64,000 nt of DNA from positions 496,001-560,000 of the forward strand of contig NZ_LRPC01000001.1 of NCBI RefSeq assembly GCF_001592965.1. Direction: 5' to 3'. The translations under genes and the position numbers were made by a program. The notes under the pieces are model-generated. The model was not told the origin of the DNA and did not search any database. It worked only from the letters and a program-made list of their open reading frames with translations. The stretch comes from Roseivirga spongicola. GTDB taxonomy: Bacteria; Bacteroidota; Bacteroidia; Cytophagales; Cyclobacteriaceae. This document shows positions 43,931-55,020 of this stretch, piece by piece (the stretch's first letter is position 1; every line of letters begins with the position of its first letter).

Positions 43931-43947
43931 TTGCAATCCTGTTGCAG
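43931..43947. promoter_or_regulatory. Predicted Zur operator upstream of the ZIP gene
   Basis: TTGCAATCCTGTTGCAG resembles TTGCAAC-N3-GTTGCAA with one mismatch in each half. It starts three bases inside a -7-like element CATCTTTG (43926-43933), the same register as at 49151 and 52533. It ends 16 bases before the ZIP start. The regulator assignment is inference. Confidence 0.6.
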
Positions 43948-43963
43948 ATGCAAAATTTGAGAA

Positions 43964-44710
43964 TTGTTAATTAAAGCTATTTTACTTTTTCTGGCTGTTG
44001 CATTGCCGGCTCTTGTTATCATTAAGAGTTCAGGCTTTTCTACTAAGCGCCTTCAGCTCTTTTTGGTTTTTGCTGGTGCTTATCTATTTGCAATGACCAT
44101 CATTCACCTTATTCCAGATCTTTTCTATTCTAAAGAAGATCCGTTTAGTCTTGGGCTTTATATACTATTGGGGTTTTTCTTACAGAAAATCATAGAGAAT
44201 TTCACCAGTGGTGTAGAACACGGACACGTACATCAGCATGCCAACTTCTCAGTTACTTACCTATTGATAGCCCTAAGCCTTCACTCTTTTTTAGAAGGAA
44301 GCATTCTTACCGATTCTTTACACTCACACCATGTAACAGATGCAGAGCACGCTCAAAGCAGCTCTCCGAAGATATTGCTTGGCATAATAATGCATAAAAT
44401 TCCAGCGGCAATAGCGCTTATGGCCCTTCTGCTTTATAAAATGTCTAGTAAAGCCAAAGCTTATATGCTTATTCTAGTCTTTGCGCTAGCTTCGCCTTTA
44501 GGACTATTTACTGGTGAGTTTCTTAGTAACGGGCATGTTCTTCCAGAAAAGTACATGATTATATTTTTTGCAGTAGTTGCTGGTAGTTTTCTGCAAATCT
44601 CTACAACCATTTTTATAGAAACAGATCCCAATCACAAGCTCAATTGGCAAAGATTCGGGGTATCAGTATTTGGCGCGATGTCTGCGGTTTTAGCTCAGGT
44701 ACTTATCTGA
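43964..44710 (+). CDS. ZIP family metal transporter
   Basis: This 248-residue importer of the ZIP family probably takes up zinc. A His-rich loop lies at about 85-92 (EHGHVHQH), and the transport helices carry HSFLEG (His107, Glu111) and HKIPAA (His144). The only plausible start is TTG at 43964, because a TGA stop precedes it in frame and no ATG is near. A predicted operator lies immediately upstream. A CDF exporter gene follows 36 bases downstream. Confidence 0.85.
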   Translation: MLIKAILLFLAVALPALVIIKSSGFSTKRLQLFLVFAGAYLFAMTIIHLIPDLFYSKEDPFSLGLYILLGFFLQKIIENFTSGVEHGHVHQHANFSVTYLLIALSLHSFLEGSILTDSLHSHHVTDAEHAQSSSPKILLGIIMHKIPAAIALMALLLYKMSSKAKAYMLILVFALASPLGLFTGEFLSNGHVLPEKYMIIFFAVVAGSFLQISTTIFIETDPNHKLNWQRFGVSVFGAMSAVLAQVLI

Positions 44711-44746
44711 AACTGTGTTGCGTAGGTTTTCTTAATACATTTGGAC

Positions 44747-45631
44747 ATGGGTCATCACCATAATCATCACAGGCACGGGCAAAGCACCAAAAACCTTAAG
44801 GTTGCATTCTTTCTTAACCTTTCTTTTACGGTTATTGAGTTTATCGGTGGGCTCCTAACTGGTAGTATGGCTATCATGTCTGATGCCCTGCATGACCTTG
44901 GCGACAGCATTAGCATAGGCTTGAGTTGGTACTTTCAGAACCTCTCAGAAAAGAAGAGAGACAACACCTTTTCTTATGGCTATAAGCGATTCTCTTTACT
45001 CGGAGCCATAATCAATGCTGTGGTACTTTTAGTAGGTTCAGTAATCATCATCAGCAAGGCGGCACCTGCTATTATGAATCCAAGTCAGGTAGACGAAAAA
45101 GGCATGCTCTACATTGCCATTTTCGGAGTTGTAGTGAATGGTGTAGCTGTTTTAAGACTTAGAAAAGGCAGTTCTATCAACGAAAGAGTTATTAGTCTGC
45201 ATTTACTGGAAGATGTACTCGGCTGGGTAGCTGTACTTATAGGTAGTTTACTCATTATGTACTTCGATTGGTACTTTATAGATCCGCTACTTTCTGTGTT
45301 AATCGCTCTTTTCATTATATACAATGTCTTCGTCAACATCAAGAAGAGCTTTCAGATCATTCTTCAGGCAACCCCTAAAGAAATAGATATCGAGAAAGTA
45401 CACAAGAAGCTCAGAACCATCCCAGAAGTGATTGAAATTCATGATTGCCATATCTGGTCAATGGATGGTGAATACCATGTGTTCTCTGCTCATTTGGTAC
45501 TGGATAAGTCTTACGACCTACGCCTTCAGGCTGCTATTAAAAAGCGGGCAAAATACTTACTTCACGAATTAGGCATTGAGCATTCAACCCTTGAGTTTGA
45601 GTTGAAGGATGAACATTGCGATGGGTGTTAA
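44747..45631 (+). CDS. CDF family cation exporter
   Basis: This 294-residue cation-diffusion-facilitator has a His-rich N-terminus (six His in the first ten residues). Six membrane helices contain SDALHDLGD (metal site A) and HLLEDVLGW. A cytoplasmic C-terminal domain with HDCHIWSMDGEYHVFSAHL follows. It probably exports zinc or a similar ion. The ATG at 44747 is preferred to a TTG six bases before it. It lies 36 bases after the ZIP gene on the same strand and shares its stop region with the convergent permease gene. Confidence 0.88.
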   Translation: MGHHHNHHRHGQSTKNLKVAFFLNLSFTVIEFIGGLLTGSMAIMSDALHDLGDSISIGLSWYFQNLSEKKRDNTFSYGYKRFSLLGAIINAVVLLVGSVIIISKAAPAIMNPSQVDEKGMLYIAIFGVVVNGVAVLRLRKGSSINERVISLHLLEDVLGWVAVLIGSLLIMYFDWYFIDPLLSVLIALFIIYNVFVNIKKSFQIILQATPKEIDIEKVHKKLRTIPEVIEIHDCHIWSMDGEYHVFSAHLVLDKSYDLRLQAAIKKRAKYLLHELGIEHSTLEFELKDEHCDGC

Positions 45632-47043
45632 CTTCTACTAAATGATAAAAGCTCTTGCTTCCCTTCCAAAGCAAGGCCTCTAATAGCCATCAACACAGAC
45701 AAAATCAATAGGACAGAAATATTAACTAGTACACCCGAGGTGCCTAAAATCGATCGGTACTCAAACTTTGGTAGTGCTTCCAGATCACTGTGTTCGAGCA
45801 TTGTATTATCGAATACAAAAGGCATAAAATGCGCTCGCCAATCCAAACTGAAAGACCTCACATTAGCCTTAAATTCATTGTAGTTTTTTGAAGATGTACC
45901 CGCCAACTCAGTAGCACCATCTTGAAACAGAACTGCCGGACTTAACAGTCCCCATGAGTCTACCCACTTCTGCTGTTTAGTTAGTTGTTCATCGAACCTA
46001 TTGATTACAGGCGATAGCTCCTCTTCCATTAACTCTTGGCTAGCAAAATAGCCTTGCCAGTAGCCATAAGCATTCTGTCCTTCATTACGAATAAGTTCTG
46101 GATGATTCCTCAAGTACTCATCCAACACCCTATCTTGTTCTTGGCTCAATTCCTTCTTGGTCTGCCTAATTTCATTAAGCAATGTTACCCTTGAAGGCAT
46201 TGGGTACACGGTATTGGCAGCCTGATTAATAACGGTTGGAAGAATCAGCACGAGCAAAATCCATAAGGAGAGCAGGGAAACAGCATTCTTGGCCGAAGAA
46301 TACCCGTAAATATTAACCAGATAAGAAACAGCAAACCAAAAGGCTAAGTAAGCATAGGTCAGCAAAAAGAAAGTAACTAGGCTCAAGCTAAACGCCATTC
46401 CAACCATTACTGCTGTAAGAGTCAGAATGAATGTAAGAATTATGGCCAAAGAGCAATAGCGAATAATAAAACGCTGAAGTAACCACAAGTTTGTGTTGAT
46501 GGGGTTAGAAGCCAAAAGTCTCAGCCTACCAGACTCCAATTCTTGAGTTCTTAAGTTGTAGGTAAAAGCTATAATTACTAGTGGAACCAAATAAGTGAGC
46601 ACAAAAGCCAAGTCGAAATTCCCGAATAGCAATTGAACTGGGTTATTCAGCTCATTGAAACTAAGCGTAGCCAAGTCTTCACTAGAAGAAATCTTAATCT
46701 GATGAGTATATAAATCGCTCTGACCTATGGCCAATTTACTAATTTCTGTAGCTGGCATAGTAGCCAATTGGCCAGTATAAATAGCCACATTCATTGGAGA
46801 AAGGCGAAAAGCACTAGGATGTTCCTCTCCTTTGCTCAGGTTTAAAGCCACTTCTTGTATTAGGTCTTCCTTTTCTTGTTGAGCAGCAATGGCTTGTTGC
46901 TGGTCTGCCTGCCTTCTTTCAAAATGTCTTAAACCGTTGTATCCAGCATACAAACAGAGTAAGACTAAAACAAGACTAAGTGAAACGAACCAATAGTTTC
47001 GGCTTAAAAGTCTGACCTCGTGGCGGATATTCTGACTGACCAT
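45628..47043 (-). CDS. ABC-2 type permease with large periplasmic domain (2)
   Basis: This 471-residue permease has an N-terminal helix, a periplasmic domain of about 100 residues, then several helices at about 145-300 and a C-terminal helix (DUF3526-like organisation). TYNLRTQELESGRLRLLASNP is a cytoplasmic coupling motif typical of ABC-2 permeases. It starts at ATG 47043, one base after the stop of the first permease gene. It is the third gene of the ABC operon and converges with the CDF gene. Confidence 0.8.
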   Translation of the reverse strand: MVSQNIRHEVRLLSRNYWFVSLSLVLVLLCLYAGYNGLRHFERRQADQQQAIAAQQEKEDLIQEVALNLSKGEEHPSAFRLSPMNVAIYTGQLATMPATEISKLAIGQSDLYTHQIKISSSEDLATLSFNELNNPVQLLFGNFDLAFVLTYLVPLVIIAFTYNLRTQELESGRLRLLASNPINTNLWLLQRFIIRYCSLAIILTFILTLTAVMVGMAFSLSLVTFFLLTYAYLAFWFAVSYLVNIYGYSSAKNAVSLLSLWILLVLILPTVINQAANTVYPMPSRVTLLNEIRQTKKELSQEQDRVLDEYLRNHPELIRNEGQNAYGYWQGYFASQELMEEELSPVINRFDEQLTKQQKWVDSWGLLSPAVLFQDGATELAGTSSKNYNEFKANVRSFSLDWRAHFMPFVFDNTMLEHSDLEALPKFEYRSILGTSGVLVNISVLLILSVLMAIRGLALEGKQELLSFSRS

Positions 47044-47044
47044 A

Positions 47045-48436
47045 TTAAACTCGGGTTGAAGCAAAAAATAGTAGAGCAAACGAGCCCAGTAACCATGCAG
47101 TAAGAATGAGGAGATTACTCTTATTGGCATCCATTACTTCGCCAAAATCAGGAGCTTCGAAATTGAACTCTGGCACTTCTGAAAGCAAAGAAGCATCGGC
47201 TTTGTAGCTCCATTCACCTAGTTTAGAGTTTTCGGCAAAATTGGTATTTAAAACTCTCTGCATTTCCACTCTGTGTTTTTCTGCTGCATCTGCAAAATTC
47301 CAATGGGTGGAGTAATCGGTACTAGCTAGAGACATGGACAGAAAACGAGTAGGCAAAAAAGGTGAAAGAAATGCCAAGCTACGGTATACCTGAGTCTGCT
47401 TTTGATGTACCTCTTTCAGCTTTTCGTTGTGCTTAAAGTAAATAGCGGTCTCGTGTTCTTCGCCCTTCTGCATTCTAAACGCATCGAAGTTGAAGGGCAA
47501 GTCTTCTAATTTGCTCACCTCATAAGCCTGAAGCGTTTCTTGCTCCAATTTTTTAGAAGCTTCACTCCAAGGGTCATGACCATCTAAACCTTTCTTCTTA
47601 TCTTCGGCCACAGCAGCATCGAACTCCTGCCTTGTAGGATAAGGATGTTTTTCATTGGTAAAGCTGCTGGCGGTCTTTGGAACCGCCAGACAACTAACAA
47701 TCCAAATGGCTAATAATATAACCAATGAAATACCCGAGTTATTTAAGAATGAGGAGATAACAAGGGTAATGCTGTTGACTATGGCAAAATAGGCTAGATA
47801 AACTAGCCACATTGTTGCCACGAACTTCCAGTCAATTTGTCTTATGAATAAGGCAGCCAGAATAAATATAATTGTTGTGAGAATGGCTACTGGAGCATAA
47901 TTGCCCAACCATTTACCCAAGATTAACTGCTGGTTGCTTATTCCCTGAGTCTTAATAATTCTTAGTGTGCCTTGCTCTTTTTCCTTTGTAACCGACTGAT
48001 GCCCCAAGGCTATGATCATAAGTGGAACAATAAAGAGCAGAATAAAATCTGGTGTTAAATCGCCAAAACGCGATAAACCGGTCTGGTCTGCAGCTGCCAC
48101 ATTATCGGCTTCGTTTCTAGAGTGTGCTTCTAGAAAAATAGACACCCCGGTAAACTTCTCTACTCCTGGGTCTATCAGAGAAAGTGGAAATTGAGGTTTA
48201 AACGCATAAGTGCCATAGTGAGCAGCATTGTGCGGGTTGGTTGCGCCCTGAGCTAACCAAAGTGATCTGGCATCTTCCTGTGCCAATTCGCGCTGAAGGT
48301 TTTTCTCTTGCCAATGAACATGACTAATATAAATGGCAACAACGCTTAGGGCCACAACAATACCCAACATCCATTTGAATTGACCAGATCTGGTCATCTC
48401 CAAAATTTCTTTTTTAGCTACTCGGAAAACCATCAT
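47045..48436 (-). CDS. ABC-2 type permease with large periplasmic domain (1)
   Basis: This 463-residue permease has a first helix near 22-40, a large periplasmic region, and a conserved coupling motif HQSVTKEKEQGTLRIIKTQGISN. Helices at about 180-260 and a C-terminal helix follow. Its architecture matches the DUF3526 family. It begins one base after the ATPase gene. The substrate is unknown. Its position behind predicted Zur operators suggests a role in zinc scarcity (inference). Confidence 0.8.
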   Translation of the reverse strand: MMVFRVAKKEILEMTRSGQFKWMLGIVVALSVVAIYISHVHWQEKNLQRELAQEDARSLWLAQGATNPHNAAHYGTYAFKPQFPLSLIDPGVEKFTGVSIFLEAHSRNEADNVAAADQTGLSRFGDLTPDFILLFIVPLMIIALGHQSVTKEKEQGTLRIIKTQGISNQQLILGKWLGNYAPVAILTTIIFILAALFIRQIDWKFVATMWLVYLAYFAIVNSITLVISSFLNNSGISLVILLAIWIVSCLAVPKTASSFTNEKHPYPTRQEFDAAVAEDKKKGLDGHDPWSEASKKLEQETLQAYEVSKLEDLPFNFDAFRMQKGEEHETAIYFKHNEKLKEVHQKQTQVYRSLAFLSPFLPTRFLSMSLASTDYSTHWNFADAAEKHRVEMQRVLNTNFAENSKLGEWSYKADASLLSEVPEFNFEAPDFGEVMDANKSNLLILTAWLLGSFALLFFASTRV

Positions 48437-48437
48437 C

Positions 48438-49139
48438 TCAATTGTTCATGTGGTTGAGGTATAGTTTTTCCAAATCGCTATGGTTGATCTCTTCTGTAGA
48501 AAGTTGCTCAACCAATTTACCTGACTTCATAATTCCGATGTCAGTACCTGTTTCCTTAGCCCTAAATAAATCGTGAGTAGCCATTAAGGTGGCCACATTT
48601 TGTTGGCTCAAACGCAACAACAGTTCTGAAAACTCATTGCTTGCTTTAGGGTCTAACCCAGAAGTAGGCTCGTCTAGCAAAAGCACCTTGGCTCTTTTGG
48701 CTATGGCCATAGCCACTCCAATTTTCTGCCTCATACCTTTTGAGTAAGTTTTCACCCTTTTTTTGAAGGCCTCAGATTGAAGACCCGCCTCTTGTAAGAA
48801 ACTCACCAACTCGTCTTGCTGATACTTCATGCCTGCCAAGCCAACAAAGTATTCTAGATTTTCTAAACCGCTCAACTCGTTATACAGCACCAAATTCTCT
48901 GGTATATAAGCAATGAGCTTTTTAATGGCTTGCGGATCTTTAGATACTTCAATCTGATCTATTACCGCCTTGCCACTTGTTGGGGCTATAAAGTTCAGAA
49001 ATAGATTTATAGTAGTTGACTTGCCCGCACCATTAGCTCCCAATAGACAGTAAATGTCTCCTGGTTCAATGACCAAGTTCAGGTTATCTAAAGCTAGATT
49101 TTCCTGATACTTCTTGGTTAAATTAACGGCATGCAACAT
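48438..49139 (-). CDS. ABC transporter ATP-binding protein
   Basis: This 233-residue ATPase has Walker A GANGAGKST, signature YSKGMRQK, and Walker B LLLDEPTSGLDP. It is of the type that powers ABC-2 permeases. It leads the three-gene operon. Two predicted operators lie 12 and 50 bases before the ATG at 49139 and overlap its promoter. The direction of transport is not clear from sequence. Confidence 0.9.
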   Translation of the reverse strand: MLHAVNLTKKYQENLALDNLNLVIEPGDIYCLLGANGAGKSTTINLFLNFIAPTSGKAVIDQIEVSKDPQAIKKLIAYIPENLVLYNELSGLENLEYFVGLAGMKYQQDELVSFLQEAGLQSEAFKKRVKTYSKGMRQKIGVAMAIAKRAKVLLLDEPTSGLDPKASNEFSELLLRLSQQNVATLMATHDLFRAKETGTDIGIMKSGKLVEQLSTEEINHSDLEKLYLNHMNN

Positions 49140-49150
49140 GACTTTCTATT

Positions 49151-49167
49151 TTGCAACAATGATGCAA
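49151..49167. promoter_or_regulatory. Predicted Zur operator A of the ABC operon
   Basis: TTGCAACAATGATGCAA matches TTGCAAC-N3-GTTGCAA with one mismatch in the right half. On the minus strand its first three bases are part of the -7 element CATATTTG. Confidence 0.6.
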
Positions 49168-49194
49168 ATATGATGGATTAATTATTAATTGCAA
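49165..49194 (-). promoter_or_regulatory. Promoter of the ABC operon
   Basis: On the minus strand, TTG (49192-49194) and CATATTTG (49165-49172) are separated by exactly 19 bases. This fits the Bacteroidota promoter with one mismatch. The -33 element lies in operator B and the -7 element in operator A, so bound repressor would block both. Confidence 0.6.
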
Positions 49195-49205
49195 CAATAG
49201 TGCAG
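49189..49205. promoter_or_regulatory. Weaker operator B of the ABC operon
   Basis: TTGCAACAATAGTGCAG has a perfect left half and a degenerate right half (4 of 7 matches). It starts 38 bases from operator A and covers the -33 element. It may be a secondary site. Confidence 0.45.
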
Positions 49206-49246
49206 AAATGATTTTTGATGAATTTAGGAGTGGCCGGTTAGCCATT

Positions 49247-50128
49247 CTATCGGTCAGTGTTTCTCTTCCAAAAATCAGAAATGAGGCGAACAGCATCTAC
49301 TTCGCCATCGATGTCTGAATATTTTGGCTTCAATGAAATGTATTGATCTAGAGTAGACACGGCAGCCCTATAAATGGCAGAATCAACCTCAATTGGTGTA
49401 TAGCCCTTTGGAGTGGCATAAGTAAAGTAGCCCGTTTTACCCACCGCCACAGGTATACTGAAGAAGTCTCGGGTTACGAACTCTCCTGTTTCTTTCTCAG
49501 AAATTGAAGCTTCAACAAAGAAGTTTACTGCATGCTCTGGGTAACCAAAAAGATAGCCATAAGCGCGGTATCTATCATTTCGCTCTTCAAATTCCATAGC
49601 TGTCAAAACCGTTGCTGGATCGGCATTGGCTGTAAAACCCCACTGAGCGAAAAATGCCGCTTTATCTTTCAGCAATTCAGCTAACTTATCTCTTCTGACG
49701 ACAAGAATTTGAAGGTTTCTCTTTCCTTGATAAGCAAACCTATATGGAATTAGGTGGAACGAAAACTCTTCATTCGATAGACTTTCAAGTACATTATTCC
49801 ACTTAGTAAGCTCGGCAAGTGCCATTTGGGTAGAGTCAGAACGAAGATCTACAACGTTTTTATCTCCATCTTTCATTTCCCCAGCCTTTGCAATGGGGTA
49901 AGACAGAGGAAACCCCATACTACTCATTGGCTTCAGCGTATCGAGCAAAGTATAAAGCGCCTCATGTTCTAGACCATAAGCCAAAAGTTCATTGGCCATA
50001 GCCAGTTCTGTTTCCGAAAGTTCAGATAGGTTCCAAAGGCTAGTTTTGGAAGTAATGTTCAGATTGTTTGTGCTAGCGCAAGAGGCCAACACAAACAATA
50101 AGCAAAGTTGTAGATATAGTTTTTTCAT
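49247..50128 (-). CDS. Hypothetical lipoprotein of the COG0523 operon
   Basis: This 293-residue lipoprotein has a lipobox near FVLASCAST (Cys17). The mature part is a mixed alpha/beta protein with no family I recognise. It contains FHLIPYRFAYQGKRNLQILVV and YGYLFGYPEHAVNFFVEA. It follows the COG0523 GTPase after 4 bases and is the last gene of the operon starting with the MerC-like gene. I infer a role in metal handling from context only. Confidence 0.65.
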   Translation of the reverse strand: MKKLYLQLCLLFVLASCASTNNLNITSKTSLWNLSELSETELAMANELLAYGLEHEALYTLLDTLKPMSSMGFPLSYPIAKAGEMKDGDKNVVDLRSDSTQMALAELTKWNNVLESLSNEEFSFHLIPYRFAYQGKRNLQILVVRRDKLAELLKDKAAFFAQWGFTANADPATVLTAMEFEERNDRYRAYGYLFGYPEHAVNFFVEASISEKETGEFVTRDFFSIPVAVGKTGYFTYATPKGYTPIEVDSAIYRAAVSTLDQYISLKPKYSDIDGEVDAVRLISDFWKRNTDR

Positions 50129-50132
50129 CGGC

Positions 50133-51332
50133 CTAATTCATGTGGATTGGCCAAGGGTCAGCAAATTTCTCCTTCTTTTGCCAAGCATCAATTTCATCTA
50201 CTGAGCATAGACACTCTCGCAATTCCTCGGTGATTTGCTCTGCGTCTATGTTCTGCCCTATAATCACCAATTCATTCTTTCTATCGCCAAACAGTTTGCT
50301 CCAGTCAGACTCAATATGTTCCTTGTTCTCCACAAATGCCTCGTACTGCGTTCTTTGTTCAAAAGGCATAGAACACCACCAAACTCCTGCAAAATCTGCT
50401 CTTAATGAACCACCTGCTTGGCCCCAGCTTAAGGCTTCATCTTGTCTAGAAGCAAGCCAAAAAAGACCTTTACTTCTAATTATATTGGCTGGCCACATGA
50501 CTGAAACATAGTTCCAAAAACGCTCAGGGTGAAAAGGCCGCTTATCGCGAAAGACAAAAGAGCTTATTCCATATTCTTCAGTTTCTGGGTGATGCTCATT
50601 TTCGAGCTCTTGAATCCACCCGGCAGACTGTGAAGTAGTTTCATAATCGAACTGCTTAGTGCCGAGAATGGTCTCCAAAGGTACTTTACCGAACTCCGTT
50701 TTAATCAGCTTTGCTTTAGGGTTAAGCTTAGTAATTATTCCTTTTAACAGATTCAATTCTTCTTGACTCACCAAGTCGGCTTTGTTGATTAGAATTACAT
50801 CAGCAAACTCTACCTGATCAGTCAGTAGGTTGACTATTGAGCGCTGATCTTCTTCATCATCATTCATCTCTCTACCGGCAATGGTATCTGGCGAGCTGAA
50901 ATCTCTGAGGAAATTGAAAGCATCTACCACCGTAACCATGGTATCTAGCTGGCAAACATCTGAAAGGTTTACTTCCAGCTCATCACTCTCAAACCAGAAA
51001 GTTTGGGCAACTGGAAGTGGCTCTGAAATACCTGTACTTTCAATCAGCAGGTAGTCATACTTATTCTCAAGCGCTAATTTGGCTACTTCTTCAATCAGGT
51101 CTTCCCTGAGTGTACAGCAAATACAACCATTGCTCATTTCAACAAGCTTTTCATCGGTTCTGCTTAGCATATTGCCTTGCTTTACCAATTCTGCATCTAT
51201 GTTTACTTCACTCATGTCGTTGACAATAACAGCCACACGCATCCCTTCTTTATTGTGAAGCACATGGTTAAGTAAAGTGGTTTTACCAGCTCCTAAGAAG
51301 CCAGAAAGTACGGTTACCGGTAATTTGGTCAT
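50133..51332 (-). CDS. COG0523 GTP-binding protein (CobW family)
   Basis: This 399-residue GTPase belongs to the COG0523 family of metallochaperones, several of which deliver zinc when zinc is scarce (family knowledge). It has the P loop GFLGAGKTT (11-19) and the metal motif GCICC (Cys70, Cys72, Cys73). A switch region with IESTG, then NKAD for GTP specificity, and a C-terminal CobW domain with the FHPERFWNY segment follow. It overlaps the His-rich lipoprotein gene by one base. Location in the predicted zinc operon makes a zinc role likely. Confidence 0.9.
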
Positions 51333-51700
51333 TAATTCTTAAGGGTATTTTGAATTTCTTTTATCTGCTCGAGCATATCGGCATGAGCATCGTAAATGGC
51401 TTGGGCGCTTAGCTCTACTCTGCCATGGCTGTGGTCGTGGCCTTCGTGGCCAGGTAATTCCAAGTGGTGACCTGGAATTTCGAAGAGGCTTTCTTCTAAC
51501 TCTTCAACCACTTCTTCTATACTATCTTTTTCCGCTAAAGTGGATGTTTCTAGCTCACTCTCTATTTCGCCCAGAATAGCTATAATCTCTTTTTGCTTCT
51601 CGTAGGCCTTGTCATACAGGGCCTGATCTTCTTTACTTGTTCCACTACAGGCGCAAATGACTAATGCTATGCAAAGGGTTAATAATGATTTTACTCTCAT
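51332..51700 (-). CDS. His-rich helical lipoprotein
   Basis: This 122-residue lipoprotein has a lipobox near VICAC (Cys18). Helical acidic segments flank a His cluster, [17 protein letters not shown], with six His between 78 and 92. It should bind zinc or another transition metal on the periplasmic face (inference). It follows the CFFC protein with one base of overlap and precedes the GTPase. It is the counterpart of the lipoprotein at 38825, which lacks the His cluster. Confidence 0.78.
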
Positions 51701-52125
51701 TACTTGATGATTTTTGAGTCTTCTAAAATGAAATTCATGTGGTTGATATCTGAATCGTTCAACCTGAGCCTACCTTTTACCTTTACAATCTGATCTGGAG
51801 CTAGGGCAGGAATTTTCTCCATTTGTATTTCGGCAACAGTTTCTGGCCCCGCTCCACCACAGAAAAAACACGAACTAAAAGGCAAAGCCGAAAGCATGAA
51901 AATGGAGTCGAGTTCTAAAGGAATGTAATGGCCTGTAAGTGTTACTTCCGTTTTTTCAAGGGCCTTTAATTCTTCGTTGAAGGTAGGCACATCAAAATAT
52001 GCTTCGGCCTCTTCAAAATACTTAGGGCTGAACTTTACTTTTTCGAAAAGCTCCCAGCCTTTGGGCTCTTGATCTACCAACAGGCTACTAAGAACAAACA
52101 GAGAGACTACTAGTATGGATCTCAT
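51700..52125 (-). CDS. CFFC-motif secreted protein, copy 3 (DUF3299-like)
   Basis: This 141-residue protein has a hydrophobic N-terminal signal segment (MRSILVVSLFVLSSLLV). The core LPFSSCFFCGGAGPETV has Cys86 and Cys89. TEVTLTGHYIPLELDS precedes it and VKGRLRLNDSDINHMNFILEDSK ends the domain. It is the second gene of the predicted zinc operon (MerC-like, CFFC, His-rich lipoprotein, COG0523, lipoprotein). The one-base spacing from the MerC-like gene supports cotranslation. Confidence 0.82.
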   Translation of the reverse strand: MRSILVVSLFVLSSLLVDQEPKGWELFEKVKFSPKYFEEAEAYFDVPTFNEELKALEKTEVTLTGHYIPLELDSIFMLSALPFSSCFFCGGAGPETVAEIQMEKIPALAPDQIVKVKGRLRLNDSDINHMNFILEDSKIIK

Positions 52126-52126
52126 G

Positions 52127-52504
52127 TCAAGCGTTTTTTAGCGTTCGTTTGTTCACAACATGTGCAGCCACTATAAATAGGGAGCCTAGCACCCTAAAGG
52201 CCGGTTCGAGCCACTCAGACTCAACAAAGCCTCCTACTAAAATTAGTGCTAGGCCTGCCAGTAAAAAGTAAACCGGCTTGGTTCTTCTTTTCTGAAAATA
52301 AACGTTGAGAATGGATACAGAACCAATGATTGCAGCAACAATAAAGAGGGGAAGCTCAATCTCTTCTAATGTTTCTGCCTGCCAACCAACAATGGCAGAA
52401 GTAACAATTAATATGGGCATTAAAGCACAATGAATGGAGCAAAGAATGGAAACACCAATGCCCCAGTTATCTAGTACCACAGAATCTTTAACAGCTTTAA
52501 CCAT
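52127..52504 (-). CDS. MerC-like membrane protein
   Basis: This 125-residue membrane protein of the MerC family has four helices. Its first helix has SILCSIHCALMPILIV, with Cys22, His25 and Cys26 as candidate metal ligands. MerC proteins move mercury or other metals across the inner membrane, and chromosomal homologues may handle zinc. The ATG at 52504 is chosen because the longer start is TTG. It is the first gene of the operon and has a perfect operator upstream. Confidence 0.82.
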   Translation of the reverse strand: MVKAVKDSVVLDNWGIGVSILCSIHCALMPILIVTSAIVGWQAETLEEIELPLFIVAAIIGSVSILNVYFQKRRTKPVYFLLAGLALILVGGFVESEWLEPAFRVLGSLFIVAAHVVNKRTLKNA

Positions 52505-52532
52505 GTGCAATTTTAGGTAGTTCTTTTATTAT

Positions 52533-52549
52533 TTGCAACAACGTTGCAA
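52533..52549. promoter_or_regulatory. Predicted Zur operator of the MerC-like operon
   Basis: TTGCAACAACGTTGCAA is a perfect 7-3-7 inverted repeat. On the minus strand it starts inside a -7-like element TGTGTTTG (plus-strand positions 52547-52554), as at the ABC and ZIP promoters. A -33 TTG at proper distance was not found. Confidence 0.7.
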
Positions 52550-52572
52550 ACACAAATTGGGCAAATAAAAAA

Positions 52573-52980
52573 CTAGAGACAGTTTTCACAAACACCCTCC
52601 ATCAATACAGGAATATGATCGGCCTTGTACTGATCTAGTGTCTTCAAATAGCTTTCAGGATACTCCGGCAAACAAACTATTCTGTTGCAAGAAGTGCAGT
52701 GCAAATGCGGATGTACACACTTTTCTTTGTGTTCACTTCCGTTGTAGAAAAAGCACGTAACGCCTTTATTATTGAACACCTTAGACACCAAGCCAAGCTC
52801 AACAAAAGAATTGAATGTTCTGTAAATAGTAACCCTATCGGCTTCGCGTAAATGTTCTTCTATTTCAGAAATAGAAAAAGCCTTCCCATGATTAACGAGA
52901 AGGCTTAATGCCTTAATTCTAATAGCAGTAGCCCTGCATTTGTACTTCTTTAATACTGCTTCAATTTCTTGATTGGTCAT
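52573..52980 (-). CDS. Fur family regulator, probably Zur
   Basis: This 135-residue Fur-family repressor has an N-terminal winged helix including VTIYRTFNSFVELGLV. The metal sites are the HPHLHCTSCNRIVCL segment (His90, His92, His94, Cys95, Cys98) and the C-terminal CENC (Cys131, Cys134). The structural zinc pairs are intact. Its neighbours are metal genes, and putative operators surround it, so I call it a zinc-sensing Zur (inference; Fur proper or PerR cannot be excluded). It starts at ATG 52980. Confidence 0.88.
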   Translation of the reverse strand: MTNQEIEAVLKKYKCRATAIRIKALSLLVNHGKAFSISEIEEHLREADRVTIYRTFNSFVELGLVSKVFNNKGVTCFFYNGSEHKEKCVHPHLHCTSCNRIVCLPEYPESYLKTLDQYKADHIPVLMEGVCENCL

Positions 52981-53046
52981 GTACAAATAAGGACTACTGG
53001 CTACTATAAATGACGGTTAAACTCTTTGTCAGTAACTAACCAAAAA

Positions 53047-53622
53047 CTACTGTATAGATAAGTTAAACGTCACGTCTATATCCGATTCAATTCCAGCGTT
53101 GGTTGGATCGCCATCGCGAACACCAGCGGCAGTTTTATTAGGCTCATGAATAAGAATTACTTGTAAAGTTCCATTGCTTGCTGCTCCGGTTGTTACTGTA
53201 CCAGTAAGGCCTAATGGATTCTGGTTTGAATCTTGATCGCCATAAGCATATGTAAACTCAGCTCCTGTAGCAACATAAAATACTTGGTGATCTTCATCTT
53301 CTTCTTCAACCTCTTCGGTGATATCTTCAGCAGGAGTTTCCTCCTCATTCAAGAATCTCACTGTCAAAGTATAAGTGGCGTTAGCCATTAAAGAAATGTT
53401 ATCGATGATTGGGTCGTTACCACCTTCACCATCTAAATCTGTGAAGCTTGCTGATACTACATCAGAAGCATCGTTATCGTTGGTAAATGTTAATTCAACA
53501 GTTGTAATTAGCTCTTCCTCATTTACTGGTTCTGGATCGTCAGAATCACAAGCAGTAAAAACAGAAAGCATTAAGAACATACCCAAGATTCCCTTCGCGC
53601 TTTGTTTGATCATGTTTCTCAT
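53047..53622 (-). CDS. Predicted Zur-regulated lipoprotein
   Basis: This 191-residue lipoprotein has a lipobox near LSVFTACDSD (Cys25). It is all-beta with acidic linkers, and a segment EEEDEDHQVFYVATGAEFTYAYGDQDSNQNPLGLTG. I recall similar lipoproteins next to TonB-dependent metal receptors in Bacteroidota; no receptor is adjacent here. A perfect operator lies upstream and the regulator gene follows 66 bases downstream, so the regulator may be autoregulated through this promoter. Confidence 0.7.
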   Translation of the reverse strand: MRNMIKQSAKGILGMFLMLSVFTACDSDDPEPVNEEELITTVELTFTNDNDASDVVSASFTDLDGEGGNDPIIDNISLMANATYTLTVRFLNEEETPAEDITEEVEEEDEDHQVFYVATGAEFTYAYGDQDSNQNPLGLTGTVTTGAASNGTLQVILIHEPNKTAAGVRDGDPTNAGIESDIDVTFNLSIQ

Positions 53623-53668
53623 TTTAAAATTATTAGTCAATGATTGTTATTTTGCAACAATAGTACAT

Positions 53669-53685
53669 TTGCAACTAAGTTGCAA
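53669..53685. promoter_or_regulatory. Predicted Zur operator of the lipoprotein/regulator unit
   Basis: TTGCAACTAAGTTGCAA is a perfect 7-3-7 inverted repeat. On the minus strand a TTG inside it is followed by 17 bases and TACTATTG (one mismatch to TAnnTTTG). A further half-site TTGCAAC lies at 53652-53658. Confidence 0.68.
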
Positions 53686-53817
53686 TACATAATCGATTAG
53701 AGTGCAAAATTGTTTACCACTGGTAAATGGAAAGGAGAAATGACCGTGGATGATGAAGAGGTAATTTATCAGGTTATGAAAGGCGGCCTAACGAATGGAA
53801 CCGAAAGACCCTCGCCT

Positions 53818-53840
53818 AGTCTTAGCGTCTCGCTAAGACT
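53818..53840. repeat. Left REP hairpin
   Basis: AGTCTTAGCG (53818-53827) pairs perfectly with CGCTAAGACT (53831-53840), with loop TCT. A partial copy CGCTGAGACT follows at 53853-53862. It precedes the transposase. Confidence 0.7.
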
Positions 53841-53916
53841 CATAGTGAGAGAAAGGAGGACTCGCTGAGACTTCTTTCTACCTCAAATTGATTATTTTGA
53901 TTCCAAACACACATTA

Positions 53917-54586
53917 ATGGGAAGAAAATACGCGATCAGAAATCAGGAAGAGTTCTATTTTGTCACCTTCACAGTTGTAGGTTGGATAGATGTTTTTATT
54001 CGGCAGGAATACAAAAACATATTTATCGATTCAATCAAATACTGTCAACGAGAAAAAGGGCTCTTAGTAGGGGCGTGGTGCATAATGCCGAGTCACATTC
54101 ATCTTATTTTAGGAAGGGATAGAGAACCAAAGTTGGAAGAAATTATTCGTGATCTAAAGTCCTTCACATCCCGTCACATTAGAAAGTTTATTGAAAATAG
54201 CCCTTATGAGAGCAGAAAGTGGATGATTGATCTATTCAAAACTGCAGGGCAGAGCAAATCGAACAATAAAGACTTCCAGTTTTGGCAGCAGCACAACCAC
54301 CCCATTGAACTCTCAACTATTGAAATTACACAACAGCGGTTGGATTATGTTCACAACAACCCTGTTGAAGCGGGGTGTGGTGTATAATGCCAGAGAATGG
54401 GTATTTAGTAGTGCTCGTGACTATGAAGATGAAAAAGGATTGATAGATTTCATTTTTATTATAGGCCCTAGCGAGACGATAAGACCAGTTAGGGGTTATG
54501 AAAAATATAAAAATGGCTTCTTAAACAGAATTAATAAGTTTATAGATAAAATAGTTGAAAATAGCTTTAATGCAAATTGTATATAA
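53917..54586 (+). pseudogene. REP-associated tyrosine transposase, frameshifted
   Basis: The gene encodes an IS200-like Y1 transposase with HuH motif MPSHIHLIL (His60, His62) and catalytic Tyr144 in RLDYVHNNPVEAG. The frame ends at 54387, just after a GGGG run (54372-54375). Removing one G restores NPVEAGVVYNAREWVFSSARDYEDEKG, the expected C-terminal sequence of this family, in the frame that then runs to 54586. The last part reads through the right REP. The start is the ATG at 53917. A sequencing error in the G run is the alternative. Confidence 0.78.
54465..54488. repeat. Right REP sequence
   Basis: GCCCTAGCGAGACGATAAGACCAG resembles the left REP in inverted orientation: its minus-strand reading, CTGGTCTTATCGTCTCGCTAG, aligns with CTAGTCTTAGCGTCTCGCTAA. 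Confidence 0.55.
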
Positions 54587-55020
54587 TGAAAAGATTAACT
54601 ACAATTCTTAGCTGCTTGATAACACTCATTTTTATTATAAATGTTTATGCTTTTGAACAGCAATCAGTAAATGAATTTTTAGGAAAGTGGAAATATGAAA
54701 CAGATAATTATAGCTTTATTATTGAAATTAATAGTATTTCCAATAACTCCATTGATGCCACCTATTCCATAGCTGCTGATGCTGGAAAACAAATTGATGT
54801 GCCTTTCGAAGATGAAAACAACATAGAGTTTAAGGAATATAATAATTCTGAAAATTCTTTGAAGTTGATATTCATTTCAAAATTTGATTTAGCCGTTTAC
54901 AAAGCAACTTTGACAAAAACTGCTAATAATAAAATTCAATTTACTTTGGGAGAAGCTATCAAAGAAGGTGCACACCTTTTCCCATGGAAAGCCCCAAGAG
55001 AATTGATCAAGTTTGAATAA
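54586..55020 (+). CDS. AT-rich hypothetical secreted protein
   Basis: This 144-residue protein has a signal peptide (LSCLITLIFIINVYAFE). Its mature part is a beta-rich lipocalin-like sequence (FLGKWKYETDNYSFIIEINSISNNSIDATYS). Codon use is AT-richer than its neighbours, with many Asn and Ile codons, which suggests acquisition together with the adjacent transposase (inference). The ATG at 54586 overlaps the stop of the transposase remnant frame by one base. Function unknown. Confidence 0.6.
   Translation: MKRLTTILSCLITLIFIINVYAFEQQSVNEFLGKWKYETDNYSFIIEINSISNNSIDATYSIAADAGKQIDVPFEDENNIEFKEYNNSENSLKLIFISKFDLAVYKATLTKTANNKIQFTLGEAIKEGAHLFPWKAPRELIKFE

Follow-up and report, generated by a model that had tools for sequence, protein, structure and literature searches.

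The palindrome TATTTGCAAC-N3-GTTGCAAATA, found before four operons of the window (the whole 64-kb stretch of DNA that was analysed), is predicted to be the operator of a Zur regulon in Bacteroidota; it would define a zinc-limitation regulon whose repressor is most likely the Fur-family protein encoded at C1:752746-753159 in the same genome. We give this reading a probability of about 0.78. It is based on the sites, their positions, their conservation, their co-occurrence with this conserved paralogue and the linkage of the paralogue.

The preliminary description had reported inverted repeats at 43931, 49151, 52533 and 53669, two of them perfect, and a degenerate fifth half-site at 49189. A rescan of the window with TTGCAAC-N3-GTTGCAA reproduced all of them. 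The sites are as follows, listed without strand, with mismatches counted against the perfect palindrome; G119 is a second species of the genus.

43931..43947, operator before the ZIP-CDF operon (TTGCAATCCTGTTGCAG, 2 mismatches; in G119 the site at the homologous ZIP gene has one mismatch)
49151..49167, operator before the ABC operon (1 mismatch; all 17 letters identical to the gene-proximal site in G119)
49189..49205, probable degenerate second operator of the ABC operon (3 mismatches; 38 bp from the 49151 site)
52533..52549, operator before the MerC operon (perfect match)
53652..53668, TTGCAAC half-site (17 bp from the 53669 site; the same place in G119 holds two sites with 2 mismatches each, spaced by 17 bp)
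53669..53685, operator before the lipoprotein-Fur operon (perfect match)

At up to two mismatches, the four reported sites are the only ones in the whole window. At up to three there are nine matches, compared with a mean of 4.45 in shuffled sequences, and 1 of 100 shuffles reached nine; taken alone, this level is weak. The 49189 site is probably genuine, since its 38-bp spacing recurs before the AztD-like gene of this genome and the homologous ABC gene of G119. Operator pairs 38 bp apart (49151/49189, C1:717691/717729 in the same genome, and others in G119, G080, G146 and G052) lie at different promoters; other pairs are spaced by 52-53 bp or 17 bp.

As had also been proposed, the sites precede the ZIP, ABC, MerC and lipoprotein-Fur operons, at 16, 11, 28 and 46 bp from the start codons of the ZIP, ABC ATPase, MerC and lipoprotein genes, respectively (start codons were our choice). 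The genes are:

43964..44710, forward strand, ZIP metal importer (PF02535, 1.6e-18)
44741..45631, forward strand, CDF cation diffusion facilitator, downstream of ZIP (PF01545, 1.8e-43; ZIP>CDF order also in G119)
45628..47055, reverse strand, ABC-2 permease with DUF3526 (PF12040, 2.5e-25; start approximate, longest ORF from 47130)
47045..48436, reverse strand, ABC-2 permease with DUF3526 (PF12040, 4.8e-27)
48438..49139, reverse strand, ABC ATPase (PF00005, 9.4e-30)
49247..50128, reverse strand, lipoprotein, last gene of the MerC operon (no Pfam match above cut-off; gene order as in G119)
50133..51332, reverse strand, COG0523 GTPase of ZigA type (NF038288, 572.8 bits, just missing the cut-off of 600; PF02492)
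51332..51700, reverse strand, small lipoprotein with a His-rich stretch (no Pfam match)
51700..52125, reverse strand, small exported protein with CFFC (no Pfam match)
52127..52510, reverse strand, MerC-like membrane protein (PF03203, 1.1e-21)
52573..52986, reverse strand, divergent Fur-family protein (PF01475, 6.8e-9)
53047..53640, reverse strand, exported lipoprotein (match in 113 of 148 genomes; no Pfam match)

ZIP importers and CDF transporters usually work in opposite directions; here, and in G119 too, the two (43964-45631) are together in one motif-fronted operon. Homologues of the exported lipoprotein at 53047 adjoin ZnuD-like receptors in many relatives. Its residues E104, H112, D131, H159 and D181 are invariant in 24 aligned sequences and could, speculatively, be metal ligands; its predicted structure has a pLDDT of 87.7, and a fold search of solved structures returned no match at E <= 0.001. 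A short transposase-like ORF at 53917-54387 is overlapped by an ORF in another frame and has repeat-like flanks on both sides (53800-54590); judged by eye, the element presumably resembles a REP-associated transposase.

The genome-wide search used the operator pattern read backwards as its control. Across 4.48 Mb, there are six sites at up to one mismatch against none for the control, and 20 against 8 at up to two. The core TGCAAC-N3-GTTGCA at up to one mismatch gives 10 sites against 3; 8 of the 10 precede zinc-type or conserved regulon genes, namely the four operons of the window, a ZnuD-like TonB receptor, an AztD-like chaperone (two sites) and an FAD oxidoreductase, the last three being further members outside the window. 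The remaining two lie within an ORF and before a DUF3078 gene (C28:1245469); the latter was given no place in the regulon. Another site, C1:866591 (2 mismatches, with DUF6702 and HupE/UreJ genes either side), was set aside as a weak candidate absent from the relatives' loci examined.

The C1:482014 site is 19 bp upstream of the TonB receptor gene (L009). By sequence, the best solved relative of this receptor is ZnuD (4rdr, 2e-13); among NCBIfam models, two heme-receptor families score 130.6 and 113.1 bits versus 90.6 (of 950 required) for ZnuD, all below cut-off. The sites at C1:717691 and C1:717729, 38 bp apart, precede the AztD-like zinc chaperone gene, whose product is a sequence relative of AztD (NF038015, 9.6e-29, with 100.2 bits below the family cut-off of 400; structure 6cmk, 1.6e-15). 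The site at C12:95401 precedes the FAD oxidoreductase gene. Genes that share its GGSYxGLSA start and follow a site, directly or one gene on, were recognized by eye in G119, G004, G010, G164 and G315, and phmmer gave four places for the oxidoreductase in the 60 relatives' loci surveyed below.

G119 has eight sites, seven of them before regulon-type genes and the eighth before a gene assigned to no regulon type. Site-fronted there are MerC-CFFC-lipoprotein-ZigA-lipoprotein, ABC-DUF3526 (two sites), ZIP-CDF, the ZnuD-like receptor, AztD and the FAD oxidoreductase. At up to one mismatch, sites precede the G119 counterparts of three of the four operons of the window; the fourth has them at two, the counterpart of the 53047 lipoprotein gene having two sites with two mismatches each. 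A survey of 60 hand-picked loci from 17 genomes, covering part of each genome's sites, held 72 sites at up to one mismatch. Of these, 42 lead to the gene set (in which Fur-type genes and the FAD oxidoreductase are included), 38 with a set gene first downstream and 4 later in the operon; 30 were not assigned to it, 9 being within ORFs only and 21 elsewhere. Five of the six perfect sites lead into the set.

Genes chosen by homology are a cleaner test than loci chosen by motif. Among 30 loci of the 53047 lipoprotein, a site is found within 500 bp upstream in 12 at up to one mismatch and in 16 at up to two, compared with none at 30 RuvB loci; read backwards, the pattern gives 0 of 30 and 1 of 30 at the lipoprotein loci. 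No site at up to two mismatches occurs within 500 bp upstream in 13 or 14 of the 30, a locus cut by a contig end (L219) having upstream sites that were left out of the count. Elsewhere in the RuvB loci, sites occur in 1 of 30 at up to one mismatch and 4 of 30 at up to two; three of these four are in-genus, and their position identifies them as the ZIP operator (demonstrated for this genome and G119). In the 148 genomes of the order, 407 motif sites compare with 81 control sites. At least one site at up to one mismatch is present in 110 of the 148, and in 158 of 296 genomes across the phylum. In other orders, some motif loci have Fur-family, MerC-like or FAD oxidoreductase neighbours and others do not. 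Motif counts are inflated in G015 (L114, L120) by a repeated near-match, TTTCAACCATGTTGCAA, inside a transposase-like ORF. As expected of a Zur regulon, the operator stands before several zinc-acquisition operons and is kept in relatives; comparison backs the earlier proposal of one operator common to zinc-type genes.

Four Fur-family genes are present in the genome. In the order, 106 of 148 genomes encode a protein of the C1:752746-753159 type by the cut-off we applied (matches at E <= 0.001 number 111); the nearest orthologue, at 88%, is in a Cytophagia metagenome bin, and those in Roseivirga records are at 66-74%. The curated Zur model NF008646 gives the paralogue 36.6 bits, below the cut-off of 167, versus 37.7 bits for the Fur model, also below cut-off; we take NF008646 to be an E. 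coli-type model whose cut-off remote Zurs would be expected to miss. The paralogue has a Fur fold in its predicted model, structural CxxC pairs and a sensor cysteine, Cys80, which does not vary among 17 aligned sequences of the conserved type and falls in the column of the YvLC cysteine of E. coli Zur. By paralogue length, the model reaches TM scores of 0.65 with E. coli Zur (4mtd) and 0.70 with Xanthomonas Zur (7dh8), the highest among the 50 fold matches listed; ordered by Foldseek E-value, a PerR structure comes first among the matches listed. The two Zurs share two CxxC pairs and the sensor cysteine with the paralogue, but are only about 20% identical to it. In E. coli Zur, the C88S substitution abolished function, according to the part of PMC4219657 used here.

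Genomes with the paralogue (106) have 0.70 sites per Mb (control 0.13) versus 0.27 (control 0.09) in the 42 without, which still hold 32 sites against 11 control; part of the sites in paralogue-less genomes are the G015 transposase-like ORF repeat. For genomes of at least 2.5 Mb, the one-sided Mann-Whitney p is ~0.001, or ~0.004 when control-subtracted, values that ignore relatedness. The co-occurrence is real but imperfect. G119, with its eight sites, has just two Fur-family genes, one of the classical type and one of the C1:752746 type. G064 and G144, of the same family, have the classical type only; G144 has no sites, and the two examined of three in G064 are both inside ORFs. G132, of the same genus, has the paralogue and one site versus three control.

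Among the best 80 named loci of a longer list of paralogue orthologues, there are 38 motif sites versus 1 control site. In 20 of the 80 (17 from Dyadobacter, 2 from Telluribacter), the paralogue adjoins ZnuD-like, lipoprotein or MerC-like genes, and in 17 of these 20 a site is directly before the zur gene, where a divergent neighbour could be served by it too; the other 60 lack both a site and any of the listed zinc genes. In G139, G127 and G073, the paralogue is flanked on one side by a motif-fronted small membrane gene that looks MerC-like and on the other by a lipoprotein-ZnuD operon. G235 and G269, from another order, have it second in an operon that starts opposite a divergent MerC-like gene, the motif lying between the two. 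No site at up to two mismatches is beside the paralogue in R. spongicola, nor in 27 of 30 orthologue loci; the three with one belong to one genus.

From this pattern, we infer binding, repression, a zinc signal and promoter occlusion, as follows. A zinc-loaded, dimeric Fur-family repressor would bind the palindrome beside or over the promoter and keep zinc-acquisition genes off; in zinc shortage it would release the operator, allowing expression of the ZIP importer, ZnuD-like TonB receptor, AztD-like chaperone, ZigA GTPase, MerC-like and ABC-2 operons, and lipoproteins. The 41 sites assigned to the gene set, aligned in gene direction, read TATTTGCAACnnnGTTGCAAATA. The -7 box of Bacteroidota is TAnnTTTG. 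It occurs within 60 bp of the operator at 28 of 41 sites in the sense direction and 15 of 41 in antisense; overlap with the left arm is seen at 9 sense versus 8 antisense, the latter because the palindrome itself makes such overlap likely. The bound repressor may block the -7 box.

The preliminary description had assigned control to the Fur-family protein at 52573, a claim that the comparison does not support. This protein has no close relative among 147 other genomes; its matches elsewhere are at most 39% identical among those listed (36% for the best-scoring), and most of those compared score better against the conserved paralogue type. It is missing from G119, where the eight sites and the same operons persist. 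In the alignment, it has Asn in the column of the sensor cysteine (E. coli Zur Cys88), a weak point when taken alone, since sensor residue positions differ among the Zurs of different phyla (PMC6103462, in the part consulted). The 52573 protein is probably a lineage-specific, diverged Fur relative that is a member of the regulon rather than its main repressor. C1:752746-753159 appears to fit the regulator role better, because it keeps the sensor cysteine, is the sole non-classical Fur gene in G119 and, in Dyadobacter and Telluribacter, neighbours the ZnuD-like operon, the motif mostly standing ahead of each of the two.

Both paralogues may recognize the operator, with the conserved one acting as zinc repressor and 52573 as a modulator or competitor at low zinc. 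The two share an identical helix, DRVTIYRT, which we take to be the recognition helix, 52573 is within a motif-fronted operon, and other diverged Fur genes neighbour the motif in G080 and G146 (and, at two mismatches, in G068); however, in the tree 52573 groups with other long cysteine-less branches, with a long-branch warning and an unsure placement. We consider this unlikely; it overlaps the main reading, in which the role of 52573 is left free. A specific form, distinctly unlikely, is a two-protein switch with 52573 as a cysteine-less, zinc-insensitive second reader made only under zinc shortage. If true, it would pair a zinc repressor with an induced competitor or fine-tuner, an arrangement with no counterpart in the parts of the literature consulted.

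Quite improbably, the operator serves another metal (iron, manganese or copper, for example) or is read by the classical Fur type, C33:68516. Zinc specificity does not hold throughout the MerC, ZIP and COG0523 families. The TonB receptor's preference for heme families and the few orthologue loci with a site by the regulator gene raise the weight of this alternative and lower that of the Zur reading, but the ZigA-like and AztD-like members indicate zinc, and the classical type is disfavoured by G064 and G144, which have no other type and hold three sites and none. The L007-type paralogue, C1:390817, was rejected as a general regulator, with matches at E <= 1e-35 in only 12 of 148 genomes, the present one among them. 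This rarer type (C1:390817-391245) retains the sensor cysteine and follows an efflux gene named HlyD-like by eye, also in G091 and G019. That 52573 represses all four operons and itself is very improbable despite its location between two perfect operators, its distribution and sensor residue having led us to reject it as sole regulator.

Like the Zur regulons of E. coli, Bacillus, Streptomyces and Caulobacter, the predicted Zur regulon combines a Fur-family repressor, a palindromic box, COG0523, a TonB receptor and importers. It differs in adding MerC-like, DUF3526 ABC, lipoprotein and FAD oxidoreductase genes, and no znuABC is among the members found. The E. coli Zur box is TRWNAYRWTATAWYRTNWCA (PMC6103462, in the part consulted), unlike the operator here. 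Within the full-text literature searched (subscription papers and RegPrecise being outside its scope), no Bacteroidota Zur box appears in the portions covered of PMC6103462, PMC2770081, PMC9976891, PMC11960050, PMC4219657, PMC9478572 and PMC6613475, and the terms sought do not occur in PMC10957091 and PMC12596196. For this large phylum, no description of a zinc-control operator was found in that literature. With a 23-bp box and a candidate regulator, the zinc regulon of the order would become predictable from sequence, and the box points to zinc genes that are as yet unnamed: the 53047 lipoprotein and the MerC-like and DUF3526 ABC operons.
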